From positions 1-46,731 of the forward strand of contig QHVJ01000153.1 in NCBI GenBank assembly GCA_003222275.1: 46,731 bases of DNA, written 5' to 3'. This document shows positions 36,556 to 44,418 of the stretch, piece by piece. The position numbers and the translations under genes were made by a program. The notes under the pieces were generated by a model. That model made no database searches. It saw nothing but the letters and a program-made list of their open reading frames with translations, and was not told the DNA's origin. Positions within the stretch are counted from its first letter, which is position 1; every line of letters starts with the position of its first letter. Origin of the DNA: Acidobacteriota bacterium. GTDB taxonomy: Bacteria; Acidobacteriota; Vicinamibacteria; Fen-336.

Positions 36556-37668
36556 CTAGCGCGCGTTCGTCAGGGCGAGGACCGCATACGCGGTGGCCGC
36601 GTCGCTCATGAATTTGCCGGCGTCCGACGCCGCGTCGCGCTGCTTGTTCAAGGATGAGGCGACCCACATGCCGGTGGCCGCGTTCTGGTGCCGCACGAGC
36701 CAGGAAAGCCCCTTGCCCACGCTCGCGTTCGTGCCTGGGGTTCCCGACTGCTGCAGCGCCAATGTGATCAATCCCGTGGCGTAGCCATCGCTCGCTGTGT
36801 CCAGCGCGGTCGCGTCGGCGCGCTTCCACGACCCGAGCGCAGACGTGCTCCAGCCGCCATCGTCCTGCTGTTTGCTGAGGGCGGCGTCGACGATGGCTCG
36901 ACGCTGTGCAGGCGTGAGAAGCCCGGGGAGCTTCGTCGATGCCCACAAGACCGTGAGACGGTTGAAGAGTGATTCCGTGTCGGCCCGATGCTCCAGGTAG
37001 TCGCGAAGCAGCTTCAGGCGGTCCTGAATCTCCGGACTCGACGCGTAACCGCCCGGGGCGCTCCCGACGGCGAGAGCCGCGAGCGCAGCGCCGTAATACG
37101 GTGAGTCGGACGATTCCCATGGTTCATAATGGAAATTCAGCCAGGCCCAGGCGCCTTTCAGATCGCCGGCTTTGAACTGAAGCGGCCAGAGGTTGTCGAA
37201 CGCCTGCCGCGCGTCGTCGGTGAGCGCGCCCGTCGGCGCGTCGCGCGCGGCGAGAATCAGCGCGTTCAGGACGGCTTCGGTTCCGCGCGACTCGCTCGTC
37301 TTGGGTAGACCGCGCGTCTGATCCGGATAGAACGGCTCCACGTCCTTCCACAGCCGCACCCGCGTGACGACGTTCGCGAGCAGGCGGCGCTCCGGCGCGG
37401 CTGGATCGCGTTCGCCGAGGACGGTGCGGAGCGCGGGGCGCGCCAACACATACGGCACCGCCGTGTGGCAAGAGACGCAGGAGGTATCGTGATCGCGTGC
37501 CGCGTTGGGCCACTGGAGCCACCACTCGGCTCGGCCATCGAGGTAGGCGGCGGCCGCCTGCAGATTCCACGAAGGTGATGCCGCGCGGGCATGCGTGAAT
37601 CGGACCGCCACGAGGCTCGCGCCCATGCAGACGGCGAACGTCACGATACCTGCGATGGATGATTTCAT
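36556..37668 (-). CDS. Secreted alpha/alpha-toroid protein with c-type haem motif
   Basis: This 370-residue protein has an N-terminal hydrophobic signal (IAGIVTFAVCMGASLVAV), followed by a CVSCH motif at residues 64-68 for covalent haem attachment. The remainder is rich in squalene-cyclase/prenyltransferase-type repeats, for example GAWAWLNFHYEPWESSDSPYYGAALAALAV, DDGGWSTSALGSWK and GYATGLITLALQ, which fold as an alpha/alpha toroid. QW-like elements are degenerate and no cyclase DXDD motif is visible, so catalysis of cyclisation is unlikely. A role as an exported electron carrier or haem-bearing scaffold is a guess. It converges on GH106 with a 28-bp gap. Confidence 0.8.
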   Translation of the reverse strand: MKSSIAGIVTFAVCMGASLVAVRFTHARAASPSWNLQAAAAYLDGRAEWWLQWPNAARDHDTSCVSCHTAVPYVLARPALRTVLGERDPAAPERRLLANVVTRVRLWKDVEPFYPDQTRGLPKTSESRGTEAVLNALILAARDAPTGALTDDARQAFDNLWPLQFKAGDLKGAWAWLNFHYEPWESSDSPYYGAALAALAVGSAPGGYASSPEIQDRLKLLRDYLEHRADTESLFNRLTVLWASTKLPGLLTPAQRRAIVDAALSKQQDDGGWSTSALGSWKRADATALDTASDGYATGLITLALQQSGTPGTNASVGKGLSWLVRHQNAATGMWVASSLNKQRDAASDAGKFMSDAATAYAVLALTNAR

Positions 37669-37851: not shown

Positions 37852-38832
37852 TTACGGGACGGGCGCGGCCGCAACCTGCATGGCGACGACCTTGATACTG
37901 CCCATGGCGGCAGTGCCCTCGATGCTGCCGCATACGAGGTCCACTCCGGTGATGTCGTCATCTGTCAGCGCGAGGCCCGTGAGGACGATTGCCACGGGGC
38001 CGGTGTCCGTCCGCACCTCTATGTCGTCGATCTCGGCGCTGGGGGGGATCGCAATCGTGTCTGAATGAGGCATCAGCTGGCAATCGACGTACGTTCCCCC
38101 GGTCGCCAGCGCCTTGGCGAAGACCACCCAGCTTCCCGGTGGCAAGGGCAACGGCCACGCTGACGGAGCCGTGCTGCTGCCGATGACGGCCACGCGGGGC
38201 TCCGACGTCTGATAGGCGACGCTGCCGGAACCCCCTGTACCGTCTCGGCCGGGGGGGCCCTGAGGACCCGGCTCGCCTTGGGGGCCCGGCTCGCCCTGAG
38301 GCCCTGTGCCGCCCGTCGGCCCCGCCGGTCCCTGCGGTCCCTGCGACCCCTGTGGTCCTTGTGGTCCCTGCGGCCCCTGCGGCCCCTGTGGTCCTTGCGG
38401 TCCCTGCGGCCCCGGCGGCCCTGGCGAACCGCCGCCGCCGAGCGTCACGCTGAGGTAGCTCCAAGCGGATCCCGAAAAGTCTCCGTGGTCATCGTAGTCA
38501 TCGTGGGACGTCAAGAACGATTGGACCAACAGCGCATAGGAGCCGGGCGGAACGGGATCCGGCAGCGGTGCGACGATTTGGGTCGTAGAGTAGCTGGAGG
38601 GTGTGAGCGTGAAGCTCCCCAGGCGCACCTTCGGCGCCGACACTACTCCGAAGTCCTTGCCAACGATGACGAGGTTCGACCCATCCACGTAAGCGTTCGT
38701 GATCGTCGGGTATCCTGCGAATGGCAGCGAGCTCGCGTGCACCGTGCCACACGTGAACAGACTCCCCAGCAACGCAATCGCGCACACCACGTAGACCATG
38801 AGCCCAGATCGGTGCGTCACATTCGTCGCCAT
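37852..38832 (-). CDS. Exported collagen-like (Gly-X-Y) repeat protein
   Basis: The protein has 326 residues from the ATG at 38832, which has GGAGG eight nt upstream (38841-38845); the ORF track begins 14 codons earlier. A signal peptide ([23 protein letters not shown]) leads to an IPT/TIG-like domain ([20 protein letters not shown]). Then come about 20 Gly-X-Y triplets, mostly Gly-Pro-Gln, flanked by [12 protein letters not shown], and a C-terminal beta-rich head of about 115 residues. Bacterial collagen-like proteins form trimeric stalks on surfaces. The C-terminal head resembles those that trimerise such stalks, so a surface or exopolymer role is plausible. Confidence 0.86.
38236..38431 (-). 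repeat. Tandem 9-bp-type repeat encoding Gly-Pro-Gln triplets
   Basis: The collagen region is written as near-identical GGTCCCTGC/GGCCCCTGT-style units on the plus strand. The repeat units are close enough in sequence for slipped-strand changes in triplet number, so stalk length may vary between strains and assemblies. Confidence 0.75.
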
Positions 38833-39181
38833 GACGATTTCCTCCGCATTTGTTACGGCTTGGGACTGATTCACTTCGGTGACCTGATCATGTTGTTCAC
38901 CTCAACCCCGACGAACATCAGGGAACGAGACGCCGCGGCAATACCGGCACCCCTAGCTGGTTTCCAATGGTGGCGAACACCGAGGTTGGTCCGCGCGACG
39001 TGTCGTCTCTACGGGCTGCCAGTGCGCGGGCCATGGATCCGAGGCGCCGACTCGGATGCGAGGGTGGAGACAGCCTATAGCTGCATAGTGTGTGAGCATA
39101 TTCTGAATACATCTCGGAGAATGTGATAGAGGACACCGATGGTTCGCCCCGGCTACTCGGTGGAGGACGAGGAGGTTGAGG
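38833..39181. promoter_or_regulatory. Divergent 349-bp gap between collagen-like gene and PL22 gene
   Basis: No gene is supported here. The gap holds the collagen ribosome site (GGAGG at 38841-38845) and the PL22 ribosome site (GGAGG at 39171-39175). An AT-richer stretch around 39085-39130 (CATATTCTGAATACATC) is the likeliest promoter area, but I cannot pair -35 and -10 boxes convincingly. The base composition is visibly less GC-rich than elsewhere in the window. Confidence 0.5.
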
Positions 39182-40426
39182 ATGAACTCACCTATCGAGA
39201 TCGGAGGATCGTCGACATTCTCGCGGCGTGAGAAGCGCCTCGTCCTGCTGCTGTGCGCTGTCTCCGCGCTGGCATCGGCCGACGACCAGACCGCGCCGCG
39301 CGAATGGATCGAGCCCACCGGCCACCGCGTCATCCGACTCTCCGATGAGCCGGGGAGCGCCAGCCTCTACTTCCACCAGAACGCCTACACCGCGAACGGC
39401 GACAGGCTCGTGATCGCGACGCCGGGCGGGCTGTCGGCCGTCGATCTCCAGACCCGGCGCATCGAGCCCGTCGTCACCGGGCGCATCGGCCAGGTCGTCG
39501 TGGGTCCCAGGACCCGCCAGGTCTTCTACATGAAGGACGGCACCGTGTACGCGACCCACCTCGACACACGGGCGACGCGCGCGATCGTCACGCGGCCCGA
39601 GCTGCGCTCCGGGTCGGGTCTCACCGTGAACGCGGATGAGACATTGCTCGCCGGCAGCTACGTCGAGGGCGGCGGCGCCGGGCGACCCGCCTCGGAAGCA
39701 CCCTCGACCTCCAACCCGCTGGCCCAGCCGCCGCCGCAGGAATCACGGCTCGAGGCGCGCTGGGCGCAGCGGCTGCCGATGGCGCTGTACACGATCGACG
39801 TGAAGACCGGCGAGGTGAAGACGATCCACCATGGCAACGGCGACTGGCTCAACCACGTCCAGTTCTCGCCCACCGACCCGGCTCGGCTGATGTTCTGCCA
39901 CGAGGGGCCCTGGCACAAGGTGGATCGCATCTGGACGATCCATACCGACGGCAGCGAGCGCCGCCTGATGCACGTGCGCAAGATCGACATGGAGATCGCC
40001 GGCCACGAGTTCTGGAGCCGCGACGGAAAGACGGTCTGGTACGACCTGCAGACGCCGAAGTCGCAGGAGTTCTGGCTGGCCGGCGTGGCGATGGCCGGGG
40101 AGCAGGCGGTCCGGTACCGGGTCGCGCGCGAGCACTGGTCGGTGCACTTCAACGTCTCGCCCGACGGCCGGCTCTTCGCCGGCGACGGCGGCGGGCCGCG
40201 CAGCGTGGCTGCTCCCGGCAACGGCCAATGGATCTACCTTTTCACGCCGACGGTCGCCGGCTTGGAGCCGGAAAGGCTGGTGGACCTGTCGAAGCACGAC
40301 TATCAGCTCGAGCCCAACGTCACCTTCACGCCCGACGTCAAGTGGATCGTCTTCCGCTCCAACATGCACGGCGCGTCCCACGTCTACGCGGTCGAGGTGG
40401 CGCGCACCTCGCCGGCTCAGAAGTAG
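39182..40426 (+). CDS. ogl: Oligogalacturonate lyase (PL22)
   Basis: Ogl cleaves unsaturated digalacturonate to 5-keto-4-deoxyuronate (DKI precursor) late in pectin breakdown. This 414-residue protein has the seven-bladed propeller features of the family. The signature NGDWLNHVQFSPTDPARLMFCHEGPWHKVDRIW region supplies the conserved His and Gln metal and substrate ligands, and WSVHFNVSPDGRLFAGDGGG follows. A hydrophobic N-terminus (LVLLLCAVSALASADD) suggests export, unlike cytoplasmic enterobacterial Ogl. The GGAGG at 39171-39175 six nt before the ATG at 39182 fixes the start. It overlaps the convergent TonB receptor gene by 10 nt at the stops. Confidence 0.9.
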   Translation: MNSPIEIGGSSTFSRREKRLVLLLCAVSALASADDQTAPREWIEPTGHRVIRLSDEPGSASLYFHQNAYTANGDRLVIATPGGLSAVDLQTRRIEPVVTGRIGQVVVGPRTRQVFYMKDGTVYATHLDTRATRAIVTRPELRSGSGLTVNADETLLAGSYVEGGGAGRPASEAPSTSNPLAQPPPQESRLEARWAQRLPMALYTIDVKTGEVKTIHHGNGDWLNHVQFSPTDPARLMFCHEGPWHKVDRIWTIHTDGSERRLMHVRKIDMEIAGHEFWSRDGKTVWYDLQTPKSQEFWLAGVAMAGEQAVRYRVAREHWSVHFNVSPDGRLFAGDGGGPRSVAAPGNGQWIYLFTPTVAGLEPERLVDLSKHDYQLEPNVTFTPDVKWIVFRSNMHGASHVYAVEVARTSPAQK

Positions 40427-43400
40427 AACTTGAACGCGATCTGGATGAAGCGCGGCGTGTAGGGTGACCGCGCGCCCAGGAATCCCCAGCGGTCCGGGGT
40501 GTAGGCCTGGCGAAGGCGGTACAGCCGGAAGCCCTCCGGTGTCGTGATGTCGAACTGGTTTGCGTTCGCCGAATGAAAGCCGGAGGGCAGGCGGACGTGG
40601 AAGAAGGCCGGCACGAGCACGGCCGTGCCGGGCATGCGGCCGCCGAGCAGGATCGCGTCGGCCTGGGCGCGCAGGGCGTCCCCCCCGGACGTGCCCGCTC
40701 GCGGCCTTCCGTTGAAGTCGGCCCACGCGTTGTACTCCGCCGTGCTCAGCAGTGCCTCGCTCGGGAAGGCGAAGATCTCGCCGTTGTCGGAATCGCGGCC
40801 GAACTGGAACACCGGGTGGTTGAGGACGTTGATGGCGTCGATCCGGAGCTGCAGCCGGCGCCGGCCGCCCATCTCGAAGTTCTTCTGCAGCGACAGATCC
40901 AAGAACTGCTGGGTGGGCCAGCGCGCCTTGTCGATGGTGCGCGGAGCGTTGCCGAGGACACCCTTCTCCGGCCGCATGAAGGCGGCGGGGTTGAAGTAGG
41001 GCTCGCAGAGCTGGCCGACCGGGCAGTCGCGGCTCCAGAGTGGGTTGAGCAGCGGGATCCCCGGCACGAGGTCGGGTCGGATCGCCCGCACGTTGCCTTC
41101 CACGCCGAGCCGGTTGTCGTCGCGCAGCACGACGACCAGGGGAACGCCGGTCTGGATCCGGCCCGAGCCGCTGAGGCTCCATCCGCCGACCAGGCCCTGC
41201 CAGAGCCCGGAGGCGTGGGTCAAGAACCTGCGGTCCTTGCCGAAAGGCAGGTCGGCCAGGAACGTCGCGCTGAGGTTGTGCTTGACGTCGTAGGTCGACA
41301 CCGACCAGTCGTCCGACAGGGGCGCGCCCAGCGCGACGTGGCCGTTGGTGCGGACCGGGTTGAAATCGGTGAACCTCACGCCGCCGCTGTCGGAAGCGTC
41401 GTCCATGCTGCGGCCCCGCGTGTAGTTGAGCGTGTACGAGAAAGCCTTCGACTGTCGCCTCAGGCTGACGGTCGCCGCGTTGTACCGGCTGTGGCCGGAC
41501 GCATCGAGCATAACGTTCAGGCCCTCGTAGCCGAGGTACGGAGCGCCCAGGTAGCCTTGCGAGAACCGCACGATATTGCCGTTCGCGTCGCGCCGCCCCA
41601 GCGGGTCGTTGACGTCGTCGAGCGGGTTGAGGCCCTGTCCCAGGTACGCCTCGCTCAGCCCGAACGGGACCGGGTTGAGGTTGATGGGAGGCAGGAACAG
41701 GTGCGAGCCTTTGCTGCCCAGGTACGACACCTCGAGCACGGTCTTGTACGGCAGCTCGTAGGCGACCGACGCACTCCAGCTCTGGAGATACGGTACCCGC
41801 GCGTTGGGCGATACGGCGGCCCCGGTGGCCGCGGTTCCCGCCAGGTTGATCGCCTCCAGGTAGAGCAGGCCGTCGGAAGGGACGTCGAGCGCCTGGTCGG
41901 GGCTCTTGGGCGACCACTGCGGCTTGTTGCAGCAGATCCGAGCCACGTAATTCGGATCGGCCACGCGGTTGTTGAACGGATAGATGAGGGTGCCGCTCGC
42001 GAAGTCGGGCGAGGGATTGCGCCCGAGCCCGGTGAGCGAGCTGTGTGAGAGCCCATAGCCGCCCCGTACGACCAGGCGGCCGGCGTCGTTCCAATCGAAA
42101 CCGGGCACCCAGGCGAAACCGAACCGCGGCTCCCAGCCCTTCCAGTCGATCGGGGTGATGTATCGCGAGCGGCCGCCGCGTCCGGAGTACGCGAACGGGA
42201 TCACCGTGGCGGAGGTGATCGTGCGCCCGTCGGGCAGCGTGACCGGCTGCGGAAGCGGATAGTCGCGGGCCAGGTCCGGCCGGAACGCCCCCTGGCGGTC
42301 GTATTTCTCGGTCCGCGGGAGCTGCAGCGTGTAACGGAGGCCCAGGTTGAGGGTCAGGTTCTTCCTCACCTTCCAGTCGTTCTGGACGTACGCCGCCGCC
42401 GAGTTCCACTGGTAGTAGTAGGGGATGAGCGTGTCCCGCAGGGTGGTCTGGTTGTAGACGCCGAGCAGGAACTGCGCGAACTCGTTGCCGCCGTCGCCGG
42501 TCGTCGCGTTGCCGTTGCTGTTGGTCAGGGTCCGGTTGCGGTTGAACTCGTAGCGGCCCCCGGAGGCCCCGAACATCGGGATCGTCTTGAGGCGCTGCTG
42601 GAGCAGGTCGAAGCCGAACTTCCAGGTCTTGTTCCCGCGGACCCAGGACGCGTTGTCGGCGATGTTATACGTGTGCTCGGCGTTCTCGTTCTGCTGGGAC
42701 TGGCTCCATCCGATGCTGCCCGCGCCGGTGACGAACTCCGGAAGGCCACCCCGGGTCAGGCTGGGGAGTCCCAGCTCGGTCGAGAAGTTCCTGCCCGTGC
42801 CGGCGTCGAAGCCGGGCGGGAAGTTGCGCGTGAACCGGCCGTACGTGTAGTTCAGGCGCAGGTCGTTCACGAGCGAGGAGCCGAAGGCATGCGTGTCGGT
42901 CAGCAGCATCTGCCTCGACCAGCTGTAGTCGGTGCCGCCGGTGTTGATCTCGTCCCGTCCCACCTCGAAATCGCCCCGTCCCCGGTCGCCGCGGATCGGC
43001 ACCTGCGTGTAGCGCAGCGAGACATGGTTCCGGGCGCCGAGGTGATGGTCCAGCCTCAGGGTCAACCGCTGCTCCATGTTCCGGATGAACGTCGAGAACG
43101 AGTAGTTGCGCAAGATCCCGTCGCCGTCCAGGAAGTAGTCGCCGGCCTTGGGCAGGTAGGGCAGCAGGCCCAGGCTCAGAGCGTCGAGCATCTCGGCGGG
43201 GATGCGGTTGTTCGGGAAGGTGGGGAAGGACTGGCCGGGGGCGAGCACCCTCCGGCGGAACTGGTTCCCGACCACCTCCCACTGGTTGTAGAGGGTCACC
43301 GGTTGCCAGGCCAACCCGAAGCGCTCGGCGACGTCACGCGTGGTATAGCCGAGCGTCGAGCCTCCGCCGGTGACCGACACGACGTTGTTGAAGTCGCCGC

Positions 43401-44418
43401 GCCGCATCGCCTCCGTGGGCAGGAGCAGGTTGGTCGGCGTCGTGGCGTCGTAGTAATAGCGCGGCTCGTAGGCCACGTAGAAGAACGTGCGGTTGCGCCC
43501 GTCGTAACCGCCGAAGAGCTTTTCCGGGATCCTGACCGGCCCCCCCAGCGTGAACGTGCCCTGGTGCTGGCGGCGGTTGGCGGTCGGCCGGTTCACCGTG
43601 GCCGTCGAGAAGGGAGCCGCGTTGAGAGCCGGGTTGCGGTGGTACCAGCCCACGAGGCCCCGATAGTCGTTGGTGCCGGACTTGGTGGTCATGTTGATGA
43701 CCCCGCCCGCGGTCTGCCCGTATTCCGCGGAGAAGTTCGAGGTCTGGACGGTGAACTCCTGCACCGTATCGGGAGAGAACGTGACGACGGCCCGGCCCAG
43801 GCCGACCCCGGTGTTCCGGGCGCCGTCGGCCAGGATCGACGTGCTCCCGGCCCGGCCGCCGTTGATGAATAGGTTCATGCCGGGCGTCGGGATCGCGGAT
43901 CCCAGGTCGGGGTCCTCCGAGCCGGCCGCGCCGCTCACGTTGGGGACGGTCAGCGCCAGGTCCAGCACGCTGCGGTTGTTGAGCGGCATCTCGACGATCT
44001 GCCGCTCGGTGATGGTCTGACCGTGCGTGCCGGACTCGGCGTTGATGAGCGGCGCCTCCGCGGTGACGGTCACCTCGCTCGTGAGCTCGCCGAGATCGAG
44101 CCTCACGTTGACCGTCATCGTAGTGGCGGTGTCCACCTTAACCCGCGGCACCACCGCCTTCCGGAAGCCGGACATCTCCACCGTCACCCGGTACTCGACG
44201 GGGTCGAGCTGCGGCGCCGAGAAGCTGCCCTTCTCCGACGTCATGAGGGCGAGCGTCGCTCCGGTCCCGATGTCGGTGATGGTCACCGTCGCGCCCGGCA
44301 CGACGGCTCCGCTGCGATCGGTGACCGTGCCCGCGATCCCGCCCTTGTTGGTCTGGGCGACCGCGACGGTGCAGAAGAGGGAAGCGGCAACGGCGGCAAG
44401 CGGTCGGCGAGTTCTCAT
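40417..44418 (-). CDS. TonB-dependent receptor with carboxypeptidase-regulatory-like domain
   Basis: This 1333-residue outer-membrane protein has a signal peptide ending VAVAQT. A CarboxypepD_reg-like beta sandwich follows (GGIAGTVTDRSGAVVPGATVTI, residues about 25-115), then a plug domain (ITERQIVEMPLNNRSVLDLA, AEYGQTAGGVINMTTKSGTN) and a long beta-barrel ending in the aromatic BAM-recognition signal FIQIAFKFYF. This architecture is common among acidobacterial receptors for oligosaccharides. No SusD partner is present. Its 3' end touches the PL22 gene, and the upstream region carries a tandem 16-nt repeat. Uptake of pectin oligomers is the simplest inference from context. Confidence 0.93.
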   Translation of the reverse strand: MRTRRPLAAVAASLFCTVAVAQTNKGGIAGTVTDRSGAVVPGATVTITDIGTGATLALMTSEKGSFSAPQLDPVEYRVTVEMSGFRKAVVPRVKVDTATTMTVNVRLDLGELTSEVTVTAEAPLINAESGTHGQTITERQIVEMPLNNRSVLDLALTVPNVSGAAGSEDPDLGSAIPTPGMNLFINGGRAGSTSILADGARNTGVGLGRAVVTFSPDTVQEFTVQTSNFSAEYGQTAGGVINMTTKSGTNDYRGLVGWYHRNPALNAAPFSTATVNRPTANRRQHQGTFTLGGPVRIPEKLFGGYDGRNRTFFYVAYEPRYYYDATTPTNLLLPTEAMRRGDFNNVVSVTGGGSTLGYTTRDVAERFGLAWQPVTLYNQWEVVGNQFRRRVLAPGQSFPTFPNNRIPAEMLDALSLGLLPYLPKAGDYFLDGDGILRNYSFSTFIRNMEQRLTLRLDHHLGARNHVSLRYTQVPIRGDRGRGDFEVGRDEINTGGTDYSWSRQMLLTDTHAFGSSLVNDLRLNYTYGRFTRNFPPGFDAGTGRNFSTELGLPSLTRGGLPEFVTGAGSIGWSQSQQNENAEHTYNIADNASWVRGNKTWKFGFDLLQQRLKTIPMFGASGGRYEFNRNRTLTNSNGNATTGDGGNEFAQFLLGVYNQTTLRDTLIPYYYQWNSAAAYVQNDWKVRKNLTLNLGLRYTLQLPRTEKYDRQGAFRPDLARDYPLPQPVTLPDGRTITSATVIPFAYSGRGGRSRYITPIDWKGWEPRFGFAWVPGFDWNDAGRLVVRGGYGLSHSSLTGLGRNPSPDFASGTLIYPFNNRVADPNYVARICCNKPQWSPKSPDQALDVPSDGLLYLEAINLAGTAATGAAVSPNARVPYLQSWSASVAYELPYKTVLEVSYLGSKGSHLFLPPINLNPVPFGLSEAYLGQGLNPLDDVNDPLGRRDANGNIVRFSQGYLGAPYLGYEGLNVMLDASGHSRYNAATVSLRRQSKAFSYTLNYTRGRSMDDASDSGGVRFTDFNPVRTNGHVALGAPLSDDWSVSTYDVKHNLSATFLADLPFGKDRRFLTHASGLWQGLVGGWSLSGSGRIQTGVPLVVVLRDDNRLGVEGNVRAIRPDLVPGIPLLNPLWSRDCPVGQLCEPYFNPAAFMRPEKGVLGNAPRTIDKARWPTQQFLDLSLQKNFEMGGRRRLQLRIDAINVLNHPVFQFGRDSDNGEIFAFPSEALLSTAEYNAWADFNGRPRAGTSGGDALRAQADAILLGGRMPGTAVLVPAFFHVRLPSGFHSANANQFDITTPEGFRLYRLRQAYTPDRWGFLGARSPYTPRFIQIAFKFYF

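Follow-up and report, generated by a model that had tools for sequence, protein, structure and literature searches.

A squalene-cyclase-like toroid protein with an invariant CxxCH motif as a putative c-type haem protein of Acidobacteriota

Results

In the window, that is, the whole 46,731 nt stretch of Acidobacteriota DNA that was analyzed, an open reading frame with an ATG start codon encodes a protein in which a haem c attachment motif, CxxCH, is embedded in a predicted (alpha/alpha)6 toroid of the squalene-cyclase type (Table 1). The protein would be a c-type haem protein by its motif, it is a toroid by its fold, and by test it is a member of neither family. The reading that we favor, with moderate confidence, is that the protein is exported, that its toroid scaffold carries a single c-type haem ligated by His/Met (or His/His), and that it works as a redox relay. 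The literature searched did not contain a description of CxxCH combined with a squalene-cyclase-type toroid.

Table 1. Features of the toroid gene and of its product in the window.
Feature	Position	Strand	Basis
Open reading frame of the toroid protein, 370 aa, stop included	36556..37668	-	homologs over the entire length
Signal-peptide-like N-terminus, residues 1-30	37579..37668	-	read by eye
CVSCH, putative haem c attachment motif, residues 64-68	37465..37479	-	invariance in 57/57 loci and model position
(alpha/alpha)6 toroid, 12 helices, residues 36-368	36565..37563	-	AlphaFold; squalene-hopene cyclases matched by Foldseek and by profile
Complete QW motif, residues 319-335	36664..36714	-	sequence
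QxxDGGW motif, residues 267-273	36850..36870	-	D270, G271 and G272 invariant
Q164-G172-W174-x-W176 loop, haem-side face	37141..37179	-	full or near invariance of Q164 and G172
Segment 352-356 with the predicted distal haem ligand Met354 (36607-36609)	36601..36615	-	conservation

The CxxCH motif lies in the first hairpin of the toroid

The protein starts with a signal-peptide-like stretch (MKSSIAGIVTFAVCMGASLVAVRFTHARA), in which, by eye, a basic start is followed by a hydrophobic stretch and by ARA immediately ahead of the toroid; the N-terminal end of the AlphaFold model is disordered and of low confidence. The protein is thus apparently exported, and the export proposed in an earlier sequence-only reading of this gene is probable. 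That reading had started from a CVSCH motif near the N-terminus, which is indeed present, and had named the lack of conservation in orthologues as grounds for giving up the haem. No such lack was found: CxxCHT is invariant in all 57 loci, at identities from 27 to 100%, and the mature region of 53 of the 64 aligned distinct relatives contains no cysteines besides the two of the motif. Because of both observations, the motif of the window protein cannot be attributed to chance. In the near clade, His68 is the only His column that is conserved in at least 90% of the members (52 of 52), and one paralog, L077, has CxxCHM instead of CxxCHT.

The AlphaFold model of the window protein, which was built on 37 family sequences (mean pLDDT 90.4, pTM 0.87), comprises 12 helices that form a complete (alpha/alpha)6 ring, with no extra domain beyond the toroid in the protein. 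In this model, the motif is located in the loop that joins helix 1 (outer, residues 36-52) to helix 2 (inner, residues 70-84); here and below, outer and inner helices were assigned from the usual helix alternation in such rings and not from coordinates. A second model, of a distant member that is about 31-33% identical, places its CxxCH (residues 75-79) in the same inter-helix loop. The location in the first toroid loop in both models indicates that the motif is part of the toroid and not of a separate cytochrome domain, so that the earlier picture of a haem motif joined to a toroid has to be corrected to a motif within the first toroid hairpin. At the other end of the protein, the complete QW motif reads K319-G-LS-W-L-VRH-Q-NAAT-G-M-W335, with Q328, G333 and W335 near-invariant among relatives, and two partial QW motifs are present in addition.

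Relationship to squalene-hopene cyclases

No family of Pfam, NCBIfam or PHROGs was matched by the window protein above its curated cut-off. The Pfam model SQHop_cyclase_C (PF13243) gave an E-value of 1.3e-4 and 21.6 bits, short of the gathering score of 26.1, and TIGR01787 gave a score of 21.3, far from the cut-off of 322.7. The same Pfam model was matched by 34 of 38 family members, and cytochrome c models of Pfam matched neither the window protein nor any of the 38 family members scanned. A profile of the whole family found squalene-hopene cyclase structures, including 2sqc, with an E-value of about 1e-20, a match that makes common ancestry with the cyclase toroids likely. The best Foldseek match was 8pak, and the matches included single-domain squalene-hopene-cyclase-like proteins, drimenyl synthases, GH105 and GH76 glycosidases, and complement thioester domains, all with a TM-score of about 0.5. 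A similarity of this level to such varied proteins makes the ring fold clear and does not imply a function.

The degenerate toroid lacking DXDD that had been read from the sequence is borne out by the weak cyclase-profile match, the predicted 12-helix ring, and the absence of DXDD from the window protein. In the relatives, the motif is likewise absent from 56 of the 57 loci, the single occurrence being an incidental DIDD. A class II terpene cyclase, that is, an enzyme like squalene-hopene cyclase, would be in line with the squalene-hopene and drimenyl synthases found by profile and by fold, but this reading can hardly be right, given the nearly complete absence of DXDD, the single toroid versus two in squalene-hopene cyclase, the apparent export, and a fold that is about as similar to glycosidases and complement thioester domains. 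The identity as a class II terpene cyclase was rejected because the defining DXDD acid is missing.

The conserved face and the predicted distal haem ligand

Of 30 positions that are conserved in at least 95% of the sequences, the outer-to-inner loops with their surroundings (161 positions) account for 19, and those of the inner-to-outer loops (73 positions) for just one. According to the model, the CxxCH motif sits on the same outer-to-inner-loop face on which the conserved residues cluster. This is the face that holds the active sites of toroid enzymes.

The sequence-only reading had suggested a search for a distal axial Met or His, and conservation allows a candidate to be proposed. Apart from CxxCH, the segment 352-356 is the only window of five residues with a Met or His in nearly all relatives (63 of 64 distinct relatives, 98%), the next best window elsewhere reaching 61% of the 64. 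Met354 is present in 51 of the 52 near-clade members and is the only Met column there with a conservation of at least 90%. Members of the distant clade have Ile, Leu or Thr at position 354, and a His at position 352 or, in two of them, at position 356. In the model, the last inner helix starts with this segment and adjoins the first inner helix by ring closure, so that the segment would be in position to ligate a haem bound at CxxCH. Since it is both the sole near-universal Met/His segment outside of the motif and the ring-closure neighbor of the first inner helix, we predict Met354 (His352 or His356 in the distant clade) to be the distal haem ligand. The ligand is not universal: Met and His are missing from the segment in L034 and in the paralog L077 (G335 C1, 3652072-3653052; the same genome also has a second, ordinary far-clade copy), and the ankyrin-fused group described below does not retain them. 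Therefore, some members may be five-coordinate, a state that lends itself more to catalysis or to sensing than to the transfer of electrons.

The main rival to the redox relay is a haem enzyme (an oxygenase, a peroxidase or similar), in which a covalent haem would lie over a toroid cavity that binds a lipid, a terpenoid or a sugar, while the barrel supplies conserved acids, Trp and Asn. The residues D270, D294, S339, N341, E185, P183 and W174 ring the haem-motif face, this same face holds the active site in the nearest folds, namely those of (alpha/alpha)6 glycosidases and of terpene cyclases, and the non-universal distal ligand would fit as well. However, Met354 in 51 of the 52 near-clade members would block the site unless it were displaced, and the neighboring genes give no substrate hint, and we regard the haem enzyme as possible, if rather unlikely. 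A more far-reaching version, which we consider unlikely, is that these proteins, which occur in several bacterial phyla, form a structural class of their own among haem c proteins. A covalent haem would be held at the active-site mouth of an (alpha/alpha)6 barrel of the terpene-cyclase type, with the substrate in the cavity below, so that an old cyclase/hydrolase scaffold would have been turned into a haem enzyme.

A remoter group of toroids fused to cytochrome domains

The family profile also finds, with E-values from 7e-19 to 2.5e-5, a remoter group of proteins that combine CxxCHH or CxxCHN with a toroid, usually together with ankyrin repeats. In all 23 alignments of this group that reach the motif, CxxCH is in register with that of the family. 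Ten proteins of the group were scanned, seven of which have an N-terminal PSCyt1 cytochrome c domain above the Pfam cut-off, and one has a VWA domain. The presence of PSCyt1 and the toroid in one chain ties the toroid to c-type haem proteins. The function of PSCyt proteins is unexplained (PMC5615132), and the fusion of the same kind of toroid to PSCyt1 in related bacteria provides a link to these proteins, with the PSCyt1-ankyrin-toroid chains as a possible clue. PSCyt1, ankyrin repeats and a CxxCH toroid occur in one chain in L131, L133, L134, L137, L138, L142 and L153, and in L149 (1510-3246, + strand) a von Willebrand factor A domain is fused to a CxxCH toroid.

The ankyrin-repeat and VWA fusions, as well as the patchy distribution of the gene, would also agree with a haem-based sensor or binding protein, in which the haem tunes a toroid that is used in protein or ligand binding, perhaps also in the remoter group. 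This seems quite unlikely, as the window protein lacks any extra domain, and a regulator or receptor does not recur among the neighbors. The opposite view, that there is no haem and that CxxCH is a disulfide or metal site of a structural toroid or a divergent hydrolase, could appeal to the mismatch with the cytochrome profiles and to the fact that we only infer haem attachment. It is nevertheless very unlikely, given that an apparently exported protein keeps the whole CxxCH, and not merely CxxC, without variation, that the remoter group includes PSCyt1 cytochrome fusions, and that a Met or His is kept at the ring-closure neighbor.

Maturation machinery and genomic surroundings

Of the cytochrome c assembly proteins, the PF01578 component has two matches above the cut-off in the genome of the window, and other squalene-cyclase-like genes were not found in this genome. 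No recurring gene partner was observed across the 57 neighborhoods. PQQ dehydrogenases adjoin the toroid gene in several loci, and PSCyt3 clusters are found near it in one bacterial family (f8). PQQ dehydrogenase matches range from 2-3 to about 80 per genome, and the f8 genomes (G026, G173-G186 and others) have 16-47 PSCyt3 matches each in addition to many PQQ dehydrogenases. Because both are very abundant in those genomes, their proximity to the toroid gene was given little weight. The genome of the window encodes three PQQ dehydrogenases and one PSCyt3, and none was seen near its toroid gene.

The toroid gene of the window is convergent with a rhamnose-utilization cluster that ends in a GH106 rhamnosidase. 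This apparent rhamnose/plant-polysaccharide utilization cluster (14444-36527, + strand) comprises genes for an Ldh_2 dehydrogenase, a melibiase-like protein, two GH39-like proteins, an arabinose/fucose isomerase-like protein, a RhaT symporter, GHL6 and the rhamnosidase. Directly upstream of the toroid gene (37852-38874, - strand) lies a gene for a secreted-looking protein, in which an IPT/TIG-like domain occurs together with a collagen-like GPQGPQGPQ stretch. It is followed by genes for an oligogalacturonate-lyase-like beta-propeller protein (39176-40426, + strand) and, in a tail-to-tail overlap with the latter, a TonB-receptor-like outer membrane protein of 1333 aa (40417-44418, - strand).

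Proposed mechanism and comparison with known systems

In the redox relay that we propose, the toroid protein would be exported to the periplasm, and the cytochrome c maturation system would attach one haem to Cys64 and Cys67, with His68 as the proximal ligand. The haem would then sit at the mouth of the (alpha/alpha)6 toroid, on the outer-to-inner-loop face, where the model places the motif. The sixth coordination site would be closed by Met354, or by His352 or His356 in the distant clade, as conservation suggests, and the resulting His/Met monohaem toroid protein would most likely relay electrons for oxidoreductases of the periplasm or of the cell surface. This reading is based on the conservation of CxxCH throughout the 57 loci and its register in the 23 remoter alignments, its position ahead of the first inner helix in the models of two proteins that are about 30% identical, the clustering of the conserved positions on one face (19 versus 1 of 30) with Met/His at 352-356 in 63 of 64 relatives, the PF01578 assembly proteins in the genome and the PSCyt1 fusions in the remoter group, and the absence of other squalene-cyclase-like genes from the genome. 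We counted against it that the haem is predicted, that no cytochrome c Pfam model matches, that the distal ligand is not universal, and that there is no conserved gene partner, and our confidence accordingly stays moderate. With respect to the non-cyclase use in electron transfer or lipid binding that had been suggested before, the missing DXDD speaks for the former part of the claim and electron transfer would be the favored function, whereas lipid binding gained no positive evidence.

Squalene-hopene cyclase and the single-domain proteins similar to it (2sqc, 8pak, 8paj) share the alpha/alpha toroid and QW-type repeats with the window protein, which differs in that it lacks DXDD, has CxxCH in the first hairpin, is apparently exported, and reaches a TM-score of only about 0.5. 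Class I c-type and planctomycete cytochromes (PSCyt1, PSCyt3; PF00034, PF07635, PF07627) have CxxCH and probably also export and His/Met ligation in common with the window protein, but in the latter a toroid replaces the small cytochrome c fold, and no cytochrome model was matched. The (alpha/alpha)6 glycosidases GH105, GH88 and GH76 have the same six-hairpin ring with conserved residues on the catalytic face, whereas their sequence identity to the window protein is about 9-14%, and the latter has a haem motif instead.

Annotation labels proteins of this kind as hypothetical proteins or as weak squalene-cyclase matches. If the haem is present, their fold, which cytochrome profiles do not recognize, would be that of a c-type haem domain, and the scaffolds listed for c-type haem proteins would be extended by one more. 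A haem would also explain the toroid genes that lack DXDD in such genomes, and Met354, together with the Met-to-His swap between the clades, would offer a handle on the evolution of haem ligation.

Distribution and origin

The family was found in 55 of the 193 searched genomes of the soil-bacterial class, in further genomes of the phylum, and also in MAGs that carry the label Acidobacteria. With this frequency, and with the second, ankyrin/PSCyt1-fused group, the initial description of the combination as uncommon was too strong. The 57 loci span Acidobacteriota, two Gemmatimonadetes-labelled MAGs, one Verrucomicrobiales MAG and one Sphingobium plasmid, and the distribution is patchy. In the family of the window organism, the gene is present in only one of 14 genomes, and in a tree the window protein nests among proteins of another family, while a neighboring gene in the window is 94% identical to the same genus. 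These three observations make horizontal acquisition or differential loss likely. Misassembly or contamination was ruled out, as the 94% identity of the neighboring gene shows that the contig belongs to the genome.

Sphingobium sp. RAC03 has the alphaproteobacterial copy (L121, 14944-18269) on its 893 kb plasmid pBSY17_1, where the product is listed as a hypothetical protein. An IS110 transposase and a type II CRISPR-Cas locus adjoin this copy and hint at mobility. Two copies are apparently broken: L024 is split across two frames, and L147 contains stops.
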